Assembly: GCF_000165795.1 (NCBI RefSeq)
Contig: NZ_CM001022.1
Coordinates: 806,001 to 870,000, forward strand
Length of the DNA: 64,000 nt
Direction of reading: 5' to 3'
From: Aminomonas paucivorans DSM 12260
Lineage (GTDB): Bacteria > Synergistota > Synergistia > Synergistales > Synergistaceae
Shown: in pieces, positions 13,710 to 19,801 of the stretch
Layout of the letters: each line of letters starts with the position of its first letter
Position numbering within the stretch: position 1 is the stretch's first letter
The notes under the pieces: generated by a model
What the model saw: the letters and a program-made list of their open reading frames with translations, nothing else
Databases searched by the model: none
What the model was told of the DNA's origin: nothing
Program-made: the position numbers and the translations under genes

Positions 13710-14498
13710 ATGTGGGGGAATCCATGGGATGAGGGGGGAGGGCAGGCCTCCCGGCGGGGTCGGGCTACGGACCCCCTGGAGGGGTGGCGGCTCTTCGACG
13801 TGACCCAGGAGATGGACGCCTTCCGCTTCCCCGGCAACCCGGGGCTGGAGGTGCGGGGGCCCTTCAGCCGGGTGGAGGGAAAGACGCGGGAGTACGTGTA
13901 CGACCTGTCCTTCTGCTCCCAGACGGGCACCCATGTCCAGGGGGGGCACTATTTCCTGGAAGAGGGATCGCGCATCGAGGCCTACCCGTTGGAGTCCTTC
14001 GCCGGACCCTGCGCGGTGGTGGACCTGACCCGGCGGGGGGAGGACACGGAGGCGGAGGACCTGGAGTCCCTCCTGAGGGAGGAGGACTTCTCCTGTCCCG
14101 CCCTGGTGTTCCGTACCGGTCACATGGAGGAGGTGCTGGCCTCGGGACGGTTGGACCCGGAGAGGCGCCCGGGGCTGTCCCTCCGGGCGGCCCGGTACCT
14201 CACGGAGCGGGGCACCCGACTGGTGGGCATCGACTCGGTGGGGCTGGAGTCCCGCCGCAGCCGGTCCTTCGAGGTGTGCCGCCACTTCGGACGGGAGGGG
14301 GTGCTGCTCCTGGAGGGACTGGTGGGGCTGGAAGCCCTGAAGGGGCGGTATGGATTCCTTCAGGCCTTTCCCCTGAAGATCCGGGGGGTGGAGGGGACCC
14401 CCTGTCGGGCGGTGGTGTGGCAGCGGGAGGAGCCCCTCGGGGCGGGGGAAGGAAACGCCTCCCGTCCCGGAGCTGGAGGAGAGGGGATGGGGACATGA
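13710..14498 (+). CDS. Cyclase family protein (kynurenine formamidase-like)
   Basis: 262 residues, ATG with GGGAGGG 5 bases upstream. It belongs to the metal-dependent cyclase/formamidase family (PF04199): LFDVTQEMD at the start and the metal motif TGTHVQGGHYF (about residues 72-82), where the usual HxGTHxDxPxH has Q in place of D. Later come VFRTGH, LVGIDSVGLE and LLEGLVGLEALKGRYGFLQAFPLKI, matching the family C-terminus. Family members hydrolyse amides or lactones such as N-formylkynurenine. The stop overlaps the start of the YbaK-thioredoxin gene. Confidence 0.85.
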   Translation: MWGNPWDEGGGQASRRGRATDPLEGWRLFDVTQEMDAFRFPGNPGLEVRGPFSRVEGKTREYVYDLSFCSQTGTHVQGGHYFLEEGSRIEAYPLESFAGPCAVVDLTRRGEDTEAEDLESLLREEDFSCPALVFRTGHMEEVLASGRLDPERRPGLSLRAARYLTERGTRLVGIDSVGLESRRSRSFEVCRHFGREGVLLLEGLVGLEALKGRYGFLQAFPLKIRGVEGTPCRAVVWQREEPLGAGEGNASRPGAGGEGMGT

Positions 14499-15532
14499 GC
14501 GCGACGAACGTTCCCGGGGAGGCCCGGTTCCCCCGGAAGGGGGCGGATCCCGTTCCTTCGGAGACGGTGCGGCGACTGGAGGGGATTTTGCGGGAAGCGG
14601 GGGCGGACTTCGTCCTGTTCTATCGGCAGATCCCCACCCGCTCCGCCGCTGAAGGGGCCGCGGCCTTCCGCATCGAGCCGGGGCAGACCGCCCCGGCCCT
14701 GGTGCTGGAGGCGGAGGGACGTCCCCTGGTCTGGATCGCCTCGGGGGGGAGGGGAAGGCTGGATCTGGAGGAGGCGGCCCGGATCCTGGGGGTCTCTTCG
14801 GTTCGCCTGGCCTCTCCCGGAAGGGCGAAGGAGGTCACGGGGTTTGTCGTGGGTTCCCTGCCCCTTCTGCCCCACGATCTTCCCTGCGTGGTGGACGAAG
14901 AGCTGCTGCGGTACCCCCGGGTGTACGGAGGCACCGGCGACCCTTTGTGGACCCTCGCGGTGGCGCCGGAGGCTCTCCTGCGCCTCAACCGGGTGGTGGC
15001 CCGACACCCCGCCCGAGAGGGCGGCGGGACGGTGGAGCAGGGGCTGCCCCTGGAGGCCTATCTGGCCACGGGGACGGAGGAGGACCGGGCCCTCTACCGG
15101 GGTTTCCGGGAGCGGATCCGGGCCTCGGAGGCGTTCCGGGAGCGGGTGCTGCGAGCGGGGATCTTGCCGGACCTGGAGGTTTATGCGGAGCTGTTCTGTC
15201 CGGACTGCGCCGTCCTGGTGCCGTATCTGGAGGAGGTGGCCGCATGGCGCCCCGAGGCGTCTCTCCGGTTTTTTCCCCGGGAGGGAAACGAGGAGCGGCT
15301 TTGTGCCCTTTCCGGGGAGGCGCGCATCCCCACGGTGGTGGCCCGGGGACGGGGCGGATCCCGGGGCGAGGTCTTCCTGGAACGTCCCCGGGTCGTCCGG
15401 GAGCTGCTTGCTGCCGCCTCGGGGGAAGAGACGCTGCGGATCGTCTCGGTCTACCGAAACGGTGCCTTCGCCACCGCCCTGGAGGAGGAGCTGGGGGATC
15501 TCTTGACGGGGGAGAAGGGGGAGAGGGGATGA
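14495..15532 (+). CDS. YbaK/aminoacyl-tRNA deacylase domain fused to a thioredoxin-like domain
   Basis: 345 residues, overlapping both neighbours by 4 bases. Residues about 20-175 look like a YbaK/ProX editing domain: AAAFRIEPGQTAPALVLEA, LDLEEAARILGVSSVRLASP, VGSLPLLPHDLPCVVDEELL and YGGTGDPLWTLAVAPEALLRLN. Residues about 225-330 resemble a thioredoxin fold with a C235-P-D-C238 redox pair (LEVYAELFCPDCAVLVPYLEEV) and a later IPTVVARG cis-proline segment. The YbaK part would remove mischarged amino acids from tRNA; the thioredoxin part may reduce or sense a thiol. The pairing is unusual. Operon with cyclase and zincin. Confidence 0.78.
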   Translation: MSATNVPGEARFPRKGADPVPSETVRRLEGILREAGADFVLFYRQIPTRSAAEGAAAFRIEPGQTAPALVLEAEGRPLVWIASGGRGRLDLEEAARILGVSSVRLASPGRAKEVTGFVVGSLPLLPHDLPCVVDEELLRYPRVYGGTGDPLWTLAVAPEALLRLNRVVARHPAREGGGTVEQGLPLEAYLATGTEEDRALYRGFRERIRASEAFRERVLRAGILPDLEVYAELFCPDCAVLVPYLEEVAAWRPEASLRFFPREGNEERLCALSGEARIPTVVARGRGGSRGEVFLERPRVVRELLAAASGEETLRIVSVYRNGAFATALEEELGDLLTGEKGERG

Positions 15533-15873: not shown

Positions 15874-15909
15874 AGGCGGGGGGAGACGCCGCGGCGCCTC
15901 CCCCCGCCT
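15874..15909. terminator. Bidirectional hairpin terminator
   Basis: AGGCGGGGGGAG (15874-15885) pairs with CTCCCCCCGCCT (15898-15909). It lies between the zincin gene and the convergent chemoreceptor gene; no clear T-run. Confidence 0.6.
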
Positions 15910-15916
15910 GGGCGAC

Positions 15917-17803
15917 CTAACGGACCCGGTCGGGGAACCACTTGCGGAAGAGGCGTTCCCTCTCCCGGCGCACCACCTGGTCCACCAGCTCCTTCAGGTC
16001 CCAGGACACGTCCCGGGGCAGGGTGATCCCGAAGTGCTCCCGGGTCAGGAGGGCCTCCAGGGCGTCGAAGCCGGGGTGTTCCTTCACCAGTTCCCACGCC
16101 ACGGGGCTGTCGATGACCAGGGCGTCCACCGCCCCGCTCTCCAGGGCTCGGACCACCTCGGGCCAGGAGGGGAAGGAGACGATCTGGCTGTGCTTCAGCT
16201 TGCCCCGGGCGGCCTGCTCGTTGGTGGCTCCCCGGGTGACCCCCACAGCCCGTCCCTTCAGGTCCATGAGGCGGAGGATCCCCGTCTCCCTGCGGGTCAC
16301 CACCATCTGGCCGCTCTCGAAGTAGCTGTCCGAGAAGGTGACCCGCTCGATGCGCTCAGGAAGTTTCGTGGCGGTGGTGACCAGAAAGTCGAAGCCTTCG
16401 AAGGACCCTGCCGTCCAGGTTCCCGTGACGGTCCCCGGCTCCCCGTTCCCCCAGGGGACCGGGACCAGCTCCGGGCGGACCCCCATGGCCTGGCACAGGG
16501 CCGTCGCCAGGTCCGCGTCGAAGCCCTCCACCCGGCCGCCCCGCCAGAAGTGGAACACCCCCACGTCGTTCTTCTCCACCCCGATGCGGGCCGTTCCGCG
16601 GCGGCGCAGATCCTCCAGGGAGAGGGATGGGTTGTGGTCCAGGCGGAACAGGGTCTGTCCCAGGGAGGAGGACCCCTTCTCCACCCGTTGGAGCCGTTCC
16701 TCGATGGCCTCCGCCGCTCCGGACTGTTCCTGGAGCCCCGCGTCCGTCCGGCGGAGCCGCTCCGCCTGGTCGGAGACCCGCTCCGTCACGGTCTGCACCG
16801 CCTGGGTCATCTCCCGGGCCGCCTCGGCCTGTTCCTGGGCGGATCGGGAGGCGCTGCCCAGGGAGTCCAGGACCTCCTCCACCGCTCCCAGGACCCGGTC
16901 CAGACTCTGGCGGGTCAGCTCGGCCTTCTCGTCCGTGGCCTCCACCCGCACCCGGGCGTCCTCCATGCGGTCCACCGCCACCTGGGCCAGGTCCCGGCTG
17001 GAGGCGGCGAGCTTGCCGATCTCCTCCGCCGCCCTGGTGGAGGCCTCCGCCAGGGGTGCGCACCTCCTCCGCCACCACGGAGAAGCCCGACCGTGTTCCC
17101 CCGCCCGGGCGGCCTCGATGGAGGCGTTGAGGGCCAGGAGGTTGGTCTGCTTGGCCAGGTTTCGGATGGTGTCGGTGATCTGGACGATGTGGTCGGACAC
17201 GCCCTTCATGTCCTCGATGGCCTCCGCCACCCCTCGGGTGGACTGGGCCACCAGGCGCACCGCCTCCACGGTGGAGGTGACCAGCTCCTGGTCCTTCCGG
17301 GCCTCCTCCTGGATGCCCCTGCCCTGGTCGGCCACCCTTCCCAGGGTCCGGGCGGAGGCCTCGGTGTTCTCGGTGTTCCGGGTCAGATGGGTCTGGAGTT
17401 CCTGTGCCAGGGCGGCCACGTCGTCCCCCGCCCGGGCCACCTGCCCCGTCTCTTCCCCGATGGCCTGCATGGAGCGGAAGATGTAGCGGCAGGCCCCCTG
17501 CACGTCCTCCCAGGCCGATGCCAGCTGCAGGGCCAGACGCTTCGCCTCGGAGAAGCCGGGGCCCTCGCCGATTCCCGGAGTGGAGGTTCGGGAAGCCAGA
17601 GCCAGGGGGGCGTCTTGCCCCTTTTGTCCGGCCTCAGGACGGTTCAGGAACGCCAGGACCGCCCCCATGCTTCCCCCCGTCAGGATCAGGGAGACCAGGT
17701 AACGGAACGGGTCCAGCCCGGACAACCCCCAGGCCGCCGAGGCCCCTCCCACGAGGATCCCCGTTCCCGCTACCCATAAGGTTCGCTGTGTGCCTGTGTT
17801 CAT
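15917..17803 (-). CDS. Chemoreceptor with C-terminal SBP_bac_3 domain, signalling tip altered by compensated frameshifts
   Basis: 628 residues, ATG with AGGAGGAAT upstream. Two N-terminal membrane helices (about 9-26 and 34-52) with almost no loop for a periplasmic sensor, a methyl-accepting signalling domain (about 85-370), then a full family 3 solute-binding domain (about 390-628; [60 protein letters not shown]). This topology puts the solute-binding domain in the cytoplasm. Compared with its tandem paralogue, one G is inserted (about 17052-17056) and one C missing (about 17085-17088), so about residues 239-249 of the CheA/CheW-contacting tip read [11 protein letters not shown] instead of [11 protein letters not shown]. 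Confidence 0.88.
   Translation of the reverse strand: MNTGTQRTLWVAGTGILVGGASAAWGLSGLDPFRYLVSLILTGGSMGAVLAFLNRPEAGQKGQDAPLALASRTSTPGIGEGPGFSEAKRLALQLASAWEDVQGACRYIFRSMQAIGEETGQVARAGDDVAALAQELQTHLTRNTENTEASARTLGRVADQGRGIQEEARKDQELVTSTVEAVRLVAQSTRGVAEAIEDMKGVSDHIVQITDTIRNLAKQTNLLALNASIEAARAGEHGRASPWWRRRCAPLAEASTRAAEEIGKLAASSRDLAQVAVDRMEDARVRVEATDEKAELTRQSLDRVLGAVEEVLDSLGSASRSAQEQAEAAREMTQAVQTVTERVSDQAERLRRTDAGLQEQSGAAEAIEERLQRVEKGSSSLGQTLFRLDHNPSLSLEDLRRRGTARIGVEKNDVGVFHFWRGGRVEGFDADLATALCQAMGVRPELVPVPWGNGEPGTVTGTWTAGSFEGFDFLVTTATKLPERIERVTFSDSYFESGQMVVTRRETGILRLMDLKGRAVGVTRGATNEQAARGKLKHSQIVSFPSWPEVVRALESGAVDALVIDSPVAWELVKEHPGFDALEALLTREHFGITLPRDVSWDLKELVDQVVRRERERLFRKWFPDRVR
16742..17551 (-). 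repeat. Copy 1 of 810-bp near-identical repeat in tandem chemoreceptor genes
   Basis: Almost base-identical to 18761-19570 (constant offset 2019) apart from a few substitutions and the two single-base indels near 17053 and 17086. Flanking parts of the two genes are much more diverged, which points to recent gene conversion. Confidence 0.85.
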
Positions 17804-17872
17804 CGAGTCGATTCCTCCTGTTCAGAAACATCAGAGTTCTATCAGGGGGAGAGTAGAGGAAATGGGGCAAGA

Positions 17873-17909
17873 CCACAAGGCCCCTTCCGCCGGGGAAGGG
17901 GCCTTGTGG
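17873..17909 (-). terminator. Hairpin between the two chemoreceptor genes
   Basis: CCACAAGGCCCCTTCC pairs with GGAAGGGGCCTTGTGG around a short GC loop. On the minus strand it lies 30 bases past the stop of the upstream chemoreceptor and ahead of the next; no strong T-run. Confidence 0.6.
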
Positions 17910-17938
17910 CAAGGGAAGGACGGCTTCCGGGGAGGGGG

Positions 17939-19801
17939 TCAGAGGCTCTTGCCGGGGAACCACTTGCGGAAGAGGTGCTCCCTCTCCCGGCGCACCACCT
18001 GGTCCACCAGCTCCTTCAGGTCCCAGGACACGTCCCGGGGCAGGGTGATGCCGAAGTGTTCCTGGGTGAGCCGGGTTTCCAGGTAGGTCCATTGGGGGTG
18101 TCGGTCCGTCATCCCCCATGCCACGGGGCCGTCCACCACCAGGGCGTCCACCTTGCCCGCCTCCAGGGCCTGCTCCACGTCCCGGGCAGAAGGAAGGGGG
18201 ACGATCCGGCTGTGCTTCAGCTTGCCCCGGGCGGCCTGTTCGCTGGTGGCCCCCCGGGTGACCCCCACCGCCCGTTCCTTCAGATCCAGGAGGGAGGAAA
18301 GCCCCCTGTCCCGGGGGACCACCACCAGCTGGCCGCTCTCGAAGTAGCTGTCCGAGAGGGTGACCCGCTCGATGCGCTCCGGCAGTTTGGTCACCGCGGT
18401 GACCAGGAGGTCGAAACCCTGGAAGGACCCCGCCGACCAGGTTCCCGTGATGGTCCCCGGTTCTCCGTTGCCCCAGGGGATGGGAACCCATTCGGGGCGG
18501 ACCCCTGTGGCCTGGGCCAGGGCAAGTCCCAGGTCCGCGTCGAAGCCCGCCACCCGCCCGTCTCGCCAGAAGTGGAACACCCCGAAATCCCCCTGCTCGA
18601 TGCCCATGCGGATCGTACCGCGGCACCGCAGGTCCTCCAGGGAGAGGGCTCCGGGGGACTGGCGGAAGAGCTGTCCCGTGAGGGTGCGGGAGGCTCCCTC
18701 CACCCCCTGAAGGCGCTGGTGGATGGTTTCGGTGATGCCGGACTGTTCCTGGAGCTTCGTGTCCGTCCGGCGGAGCCGCTCCGCCTGGTCGGAGACCCGC
18801 TCCGTCACGGTATGCACCGCCCGGGTCATCTCCCGGGCCGCCTCGGCCTGTTCCTGGGCGGACCGGGAGGCGCTGCCCAGGGAGTCCAGGACCTCCTCCA
18901 CCGCTCCCAGGACCCGGTCCAGACTCTGGCGGGTCAGCTCGGCCTTCTCGTCCGTGGCCTCCACCCGCACCCGGGCGTCCTCCATGCGGTCCACCGCCAC
19001 CTGGGCCAGGTCCCGGCTGGAGGCGGCGAGCTTGCCGATCTCCTCCGCCGCCCTGGTGGAGGCCTCCGCCAGGGTGCGCACCTCCTCCGCCACCACGGAG
19101 AAGCCCCGACCGTGTTCCCCCGCCCGGGCGGCCTCGATGGAGGCGTTGAGGGCCAGGAGGTTGGTCTGCTTGGCCAGGTTTCGGATGGTGTCGGTGATCT
19201 GGACGATGTGGTCGGACACGCCCTTCATGTCCTCGATGGCCTCCGCCACCCCTCGGGTGGACTGGGCCACCAGGCGCACCGCCTCCACGGTGGAGGTGAC
19301 CAGCTCCTGGTCCTTCCGGGCCTCCTCCTGGATGCCCCTGCCCTGGTCGGCCACCCTTCCCAGGGTCCGGGCGGAGGCCTCGGTGTTCTCGGTGTTCCGG
19401 GTCAGATGGGTCTGGAGTTCCTGTGCCAGGGCGGCCACGTCGTCCCCCGCCCGGGCCACCTGCCCCGTCTCTTCCCCGATGGCCTGCATGGAGCGGAAGA
19501 TGTAGCGGCAGGCCCCCTGCACGTCCTCCCAGGCCGATGCCAGCTGCAGGGCCAGACGCTTCGCCTCGGAGGAACCCGAGGGGACTTGGGCCGGCTGTGG
19601 CGGGCGTTCCTCCCCCTCCGCAGGGTGGGGGAGGGTCCGCAGTCCCGCCGAGGCCCCTCCCAGGGCGGCCAGGACGATCCCCGCCCCTCCCGCCGCCAGC
19701 CGCGGAAACGTGGGATTCTGGGCGACCCAGAACCCCAGCGCCGTGGCTGTCCCGATTCCGGTGCACAGGCCGTACCCCCACAGACGTCCCGATCCTTCCA
19801 T
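17939..19801 (-). CDS. Chemoreceptor with C-terminal SBP_bac_3 domain (intact paralogue)
   Basis: 620 residues. Start chosen at 19801 (GAGAAGG upstream); the frame extends further without support. Two N-terminal membrane helices (about 10-28 and 36-54), then the signalling domain with an intact tip ([20 protein letters not shown], then [19 protein letters not shown]), then a family 3 solute-binding domain (about 385-620; [59 protein letters not shown]). The binding domain follows the cytoplasmic signalling domain with no intervening helix, so it should face the cytosol and may report internal amino acid levels to CheA. An AT-richer region upstream (19840-19935) probably holds its promoter. 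Confidence 0.9.
18761..19570 (-). repeat. Copy 2 of 810-bp near-identical repeat
   Basis: Partner of 16742-17551. It covers the signalling domain of the second chemoreceptor and carries the undisrupted reading frame. Confidence 0.85.

Follow-up and report, generated by a model that had tools for sequence, protein, structure and literature searches.

Known receptors with related sensors

Amino-acid chemoreceptors known so far mostly detect their ligands outside the membrane, and receptors of the BvgS/EvgS type carry an N-terminal periplasmic solute-binding protein (SBP) domain of family SBP_bac_3. RmcA uses the same sensor family for an amino-acid ligand, L-arginine, and a recent review describes the domains of the periplasmic-binding-protein clan as periplasmic (PMC8846402); that SBP profiles also match cytosolic sensors has been noted only in general terms (PMC9602780). 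Cytosolic sensors are found in soluble receptors with a C-terminal CZB domain, Helicobacter pylori TlpD and Salmonella McpA, in which the sensor follows the coil of the methyl-accepting chemotaxis protein (MCP) and lies at the base of its hairpin (PMC12871147). Here we analysed a stretch of 64,000 nucleotides from Aminomonas paucivorans DSM 12260 (contig NZ_CM001022.1, positions 806,001 to 870,000 of the forward strand; hereafter the window), in which two tandem genes encode MCPs that end in an SBP_bac_3 domain. We consider it probable that these proteins act as chemoreceptors which respond to an alpha-amino acid inside the cell and signal through CheA.

The position of the sensor is that of the CZB receptors, but CZB is a zinc-binding four-helix bundle and not a flytrap fold, and TlpD further differs by its N-terminal PAS domain, its shorter coil and the lack of a transmembrane (TM) hairpin. 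With RmcA and the BvgS/EvgS type the window receptors share the sensor family; there, however, an exported SBP at the N-terminus precedes a TM helix, an arrangement that appears reversed here in both order and membrane side. No description of an MCP with a C-terminal SBP_bac_3 domain was found in the open-licence literature searched. Within that literature, C-terminal cytosolic sensors are already known (CZB), and the SBP flytrap in that position would be new.

Architecture of the two receptors

The sequence-only reading of this DNA had described two tandem receptors, each with a nearly loopless pair of TM helices, an MCP domain and then an SBP_bac_3 domain. Pfam and hydropathy agree with this description, and the features of the pair are as follows.

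17939..19801, minus strand: MCP-SBP receptor 1, 620 aa, with TM hairpin, MCP signalling coil and C-terminal SBP_bac_3
19727..19783, minus strand: receptor 1, predicted TM1, residues 7-25, weak (hydropathy)
19643..19699, minus strand: receptor 1, predicted TM2, residues 35-53 (hydropathy)
18698..19549, minus strand: receptor 1, MCP coiled-coil hairpin, residues 85-368 (alignment to Thermotoga maritima 2CH7 residues 12-295)
17942..18652, minus strand: receptor 1, SBP_bac_3, residues 384-620, alpha-amino-acid clamp kept
15917..17803, minus strand: MCP-SBP receptor 2, 628 aa, architecture as receptor 1; hairpin tip scrambled as sequenced
17723..17779, minus strand: receptor 2, predicted TM1, residues 9-27 (hydropathy)
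17645..17701, minus strand: receptor 2, predicted TM2, residues 35-53 (hydropathy)
16679..17530, minus strand: receptor 2, MCP coiled-coil hairpin, residues 92-375 (alignment to receptor 1)
15920..16630, minus strand: receptor 2, SBP_bac_3, residues 392-628, 73% identity to the SBP of receptor 1

Both open reading frames begin with an ATG preceded by a purine-rich stretch resembling a ribosome-binding site, and both encode the order TM-TM-MCP-SBP. Matches to MCPsignal (PF00015; E 4.3e-38 for receptor 1 and 2.6e-27 for receptor 2) and SBP_bac_3 (PF00497; E 1.4e-11 and 3.4e-14, respectively) lay above the gathering cut-offs. The best solved match to the MCP part was the cytoplasmic receptor fragment 2CH7 of T. 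maritima, which lacks an SBP domain; its alignment to receptor 1 had zero net gap over residues 85-368, indicating coils of equal length. The C-terminal portion of receptor 1 (about 237 residues) matched solved amino-acid SBPs over their full length (5tuj, E 1.5e-24; AncQR 4zv1, E 1.2e-22), so that recovery of the SBP_bac_3 domain, which the reading had left to profile searches, is borne out by Pfam and by homology alike. A HAMP domain was not found in the window receptors, and the Pfam scan of the MCP-SBP receptors gave no match to CZB.

Hydropathy placed two N-terminal helices at about residues 7-27 and 35-53 of both receptors, fewer than 10 residues apart, the hydrophobicity of TM1 in receptor 1 being weak (Kyte-Doolittle mean 0.93). 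A third helix between the signalling and binding domains, which would have spoken against a cytosolic SBP, was not detected by hydropathy in either receptor, since even the least polar 19-mer outside the two N-terminal helices far exceeds them in polarity. Unlike the usual exported proteins of SBP family 3, the MCP-SBP fusions also lack a signal peptide.

Orthologues and the location of the binding domain

An SBP-alignment search of 188 Synergistota genomes (E 1e-20 or better) gave matches in 25. Homologues with the same domain order, which the sequence-only reading had proposed to look for, were represented by 13 fusion genes in 11 of the 188 genomes, spread over five genera and four families (hereafter class A); the other matches were stand-alone SBPs. 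The TM hairpin is carried by three fusions of the host genome, namely the window pair and a third class-A receptor (L077:3953-5800), and by those of genomes G011 and G112. Seven fusions (G173, G175, G031, G032, G108, G109, G111) have neither hairpin nor signal peptide, and in the remaining one (G174) the MCP part is broken by an in-frame stop codon. Lacking both a membrane segment and a signal peptide, the seven can hold their SBP only in the cytosol; a periplasmic SBP is thus refuted for these members. Together with the missing third helix, they uphold the cytosolic location that the earlier reading had assigned to the window receptors, and we regard this topology as well supported by the orthologues.

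The gene context in genus g49 suits a cytosolic function as well, because the neighbouring gene appears to encode a cytosolic enzyme: in G109, the TM-less MCP-SBP gene and a methylglyoxal-synthase-like gene overlap by 4 bp (L086:3755-5964), and in G112 the gene for the hairpin form directly adjoins the methylglyoxal-synthase-like counterpart. A ZnuA-like gene comes next at the G112 locus. After the third receptor gene of the host genome come two DUF3798 genes, whose products have signal-peptide-like N-termini, and an open reading frame resembling an ABC-type ATPase.

A wider search covered 392 relatives, including about 200 genomes from other phyla, and was evaluated for the matches listed. 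Among these, nine long-frame matches from other phyla were inspected and none had an MCP match; they resemble either fusions of an ABC permease with an SBP or stand-alone SBPs whose frames are artefactually long. Two SBP-alignment searches of a genome-contig collection gave no confirmed relatives, although neighbours of the host genome were possibly excluded there. The distribution suggests that the class is confined to Synergistota.

Conservation of the alpha-amino-acid clamp

In LAO, arginine is contacted by Asp11, Tyr14, Phe52, Ser69, Ser70, Ser72, Arg77, Leu117, Thr121 and Asp161 (Table 3, PMC5740067). Using an LAO reference sequence checked against 1LAF, and LAO numbering throughout, we defined Ser72, Arg77, Thr121 and Asp161 as the alpha-amino-acid clamp. 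It is kept in 13/13 class-A fusions, which answers the question of ligand residues that the earlier reading had raised: position 72 is T (13), position 77 is R (13), position 121 is T (12) or S (1), and position 161 is D (7) or E (6). Four random columns would be equally conserved with P about 1.5e-4 (D/E and S/T grouped). The window copies and their closest relatives retain Asp161 and Thr72. Retention of the clamp supports amino-acid binding.

Proposed mechanism and alternative explanations

The N-terminal hairpin would merely anchor the receptor, whose two ends would both be cytosolic. From the membrane, the MCP coil would extend to the tip that binds CheA/CheW and then return, so that the C-terminal SBP would come to lie beside the start of the coil, right beneath the inner membrane. 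An amino acid entering the cleft would close the flytrap, and closure probably alters how the base of the coil is packed, through a linker of nearly fixed length; the change would then pass along the coil to the tip, in analogy to the proposal made for TlpD and its C-terminal CZB domain. Where the two points could be located in class A, 170-173 residues separate the tip glutamate from the first SBP strand, and this holds across four families. For receptor 1 (172) and G112 (170) the distance was read from the sequences, as the automatic pattern misplaced the SBP start there and in three class-B rows (see below). A nearly constant length despite divergence argues for a rigid connection. Ligand class, signalling and direction of the response are what we infer from these features. 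If the proposal is true, a cytosolic amino-acid-binding domain within a receptor would be a simple, testable route to metabolism-dependent taxis, and the soluble orthologues make full-length structures of a receptor with a flytrap sensor feasible.

Several observations weigh against sensing of a free intracellular amino acid. Cytosolic amino acid pools are often high, so that a high-affinity SBP would stay saturated, and only one of low affinity would avoid this. Among class-A fusions, the pocket varies at the end that would hold the side chain (LAO 11, 14 and 117), and Glu replaces Asp161 in six of the 13. Specificity thus probably differs between members, and the ligand may differ among them or be something other than a free amino acid. 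When the structure of the SBP domain was predicted from the two window sequences alone, the scores were low (predicted local distance difference test 35, predicted template-modelling score 0.26). Finally, A. paucivorans has been described as non-motile and without flagella, although motility genes are nonetheless present in its genome (PMC3035310).

The variable side-chain positions bear on two alternatives, each of which we consider unlikely. The SBP might have lost ligand binding and now cap the base of the receptor structurally or help it to dimerise, as the fairly fast divergence of this domain between the window copies (dN/dS about 0.53) could also indicate. A cap, however, would need neither the ligand Arg nor the Thr, while the four clamp positions are conserved far past chance in all 13 fusions. 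It is just as doubtful that the ligand is an amino-acid-like cytosolic metabolite, such as a keto acid, a hydroxy acid or an amino-acid derivative formed in fermentation. Such a ligand would fit the variable pocket end, the retention of the carboxylate-binding Arg and Thr while six members have Glu instead of Asp at the amino-group position, and the coupling to a methylglyoxal-synthase-like gene in g49; the window copies and their closest relatives, however, keep Asp161 and Thr72, the usual ligands of the amino group.

Functionless, decaying paralogues are a very improbable explanation. The tip of receptor 2 is out of frame over 11 residues, which might mark decay, the G174 homologue has an in-frame stop, and the species is described as non-motile (PMC3035310); yet the tips of receptor 1 and the third paralogue are intact, orthologues persist in five genera with clamp and spacing conserved, and the indels of receptor 2 lie in homopolymers within a 708-bp repeat of a 454/Illumina assembly (PMC3035310) and may be sequence errors. 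That the entire C-terminal part of the window receptors is extracytoplasmic is scarcely credible. The usual site of SBP_bac_3 domains is the periplasm (PMC8846402), and the nearest stand-alone relatives begin with a segment resembling a signal peptide, but the third membrane helix is absent, homologues exist without membrane segment or signal peptide, and the MCP tip has to be cytosolic to meet CheA.

Origin of the fusions and a second lineage

A tree built from 49 SBP domains joined the fused class-A SBPs and their stand-alone Synergistota relatives in one clade (support 99/99), with the fused domains sitting among the nearest stand-alone proteins. The latter have no MCP domain and bear hydrophobic N-termini typical of signal peptides; the nearest ones share with the fusions an unusual WGxGE...GxxxGxW segment. 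Because of these signal-peptide-like N-termini, the SBP domain was probably taken from a periplasmic stand-alone SBP within Synergistota and moved inward. A single origin of the 13 class-A fusions was not rejected (p-AU 0.417).

A fourth MCP-SBP gene of the host genome belongs to a second lineage, class B, in which a soluble MCP carries the C-terminal SBP_bac_3 domain (G000:C1:375728-376381, 564 aa; L022:676-2370, G000:C1 about 375.7-377.4 kb). Orthologues occur in G173, G174 and G175, and inspection of the N-termini showed all to be TM-less. The class-B SBPs have lost the carboxylate-binding Arg and fall outside the class-A clade; a joint single clade was rejected with p-AU 0.035, on long branches. 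On these grounds the MCP-SBP arrangement probably arose twice, with differing ligands, although this is not firm. Taking both lineages together, we lean slightly towards the view that, at least two times independently in one amino-acid-fermenting phylum, a nutrient-binding domain of the periplasm became cytosolic by attachment to the inner end of a chemoreceptor, giving anchored and soluble receptors that would read intracellular amino acids.

SBP_bac_3-like domains also occur in other unusual proteins of the phylum. Giant proteins of genus g38 contain 7 to at least 11 of them in tandem behind export-signal-like N-termini (L153:3857-12000, L154:4167-10004), with open frames of up to 3252 codons. 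L155:693-2945 and L156:1967-4219 encode a multi-TM protein, alanine/glycine symporter-like by eye, with a C-terminal SBP_bac_3 domain.

Identical tract and scrambled tip in receptor 2

The two receptor genes share a nearly identical tract, within which receptor 2 is locally out of frame.

16845..17552, minus strand: receptor 2, tract of about 708 bp with the same sequence as 18864-19571 except for two indels
18864..19571, minus strand: matching identical tract in receptor 1
17054..17086, minus strand: receptor 2, 11 residues in shifted frame between compensating one-base indels

Outside the tract the N-terminal parts and the SBP domains have diverged (SBP dS 0.36, dN 0.19). The tract looks like the outcome of a recent event in the signalling module, either gene conversion or duplication; conversion limited to this module would give one output for two sensors.

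Compared with receptor 1, receptor 2 misses one G and, 33 bases further, has one C added (gene positions 715 and 748, at about 17054-17089 in the window). The frame-shifted residues fall in the most conserved MCP segment, the CheA/CheW-binding hairpin tip, whose motif GRGFxVVAxEVRxLA is matched by receptor 1 and nearly by the third paralogue, but not by receptor 2 as sequenced. Given this scrambled tip, receptor 2 probably could not couple to CheA if the indels are real. Both, however, occur in homopolymer runs inside a repeat exceeding the Illumina reads of that time, and the genome is a 454/Illumina assembly of 2,630,120 bp (PMC3035310); they may therefore be sequence errors.

Host genome and neighbouring genes

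The host genome, a single contig of 2.63 Mb, contains 27 MCP matches above the cut-off, four of which have a C-terminal SBP. It also encodes CheW-domain proteins, CheR, FliM/FliN and proteins with an N-terminal exported SBP_bac_3 domain followed by a TM helix. A. paucivorans ferments few amino acids, arginine and histidine among them (PMC3035310).

Two inverted repeats accompany the receptor genes.

17873..17909, minus strand: 16-bp perfect inverted repeat between the receptor genes, a possible terminator of receptor 1, with no T run by scan
15874..15909, no strand assigned: 18-nt inverted repeat just past receptor 2, between convergent genes

The window neighbours of the pair (an HD domain protein, a CBS/DHH pyrophosphatase-like protein and a cyclase-family protein) give no clue to the ligand. 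At 14495-15532, an aminoacyl-tRNA editing (YbaK-like) domain is fused with a thioredoxin-like domain.

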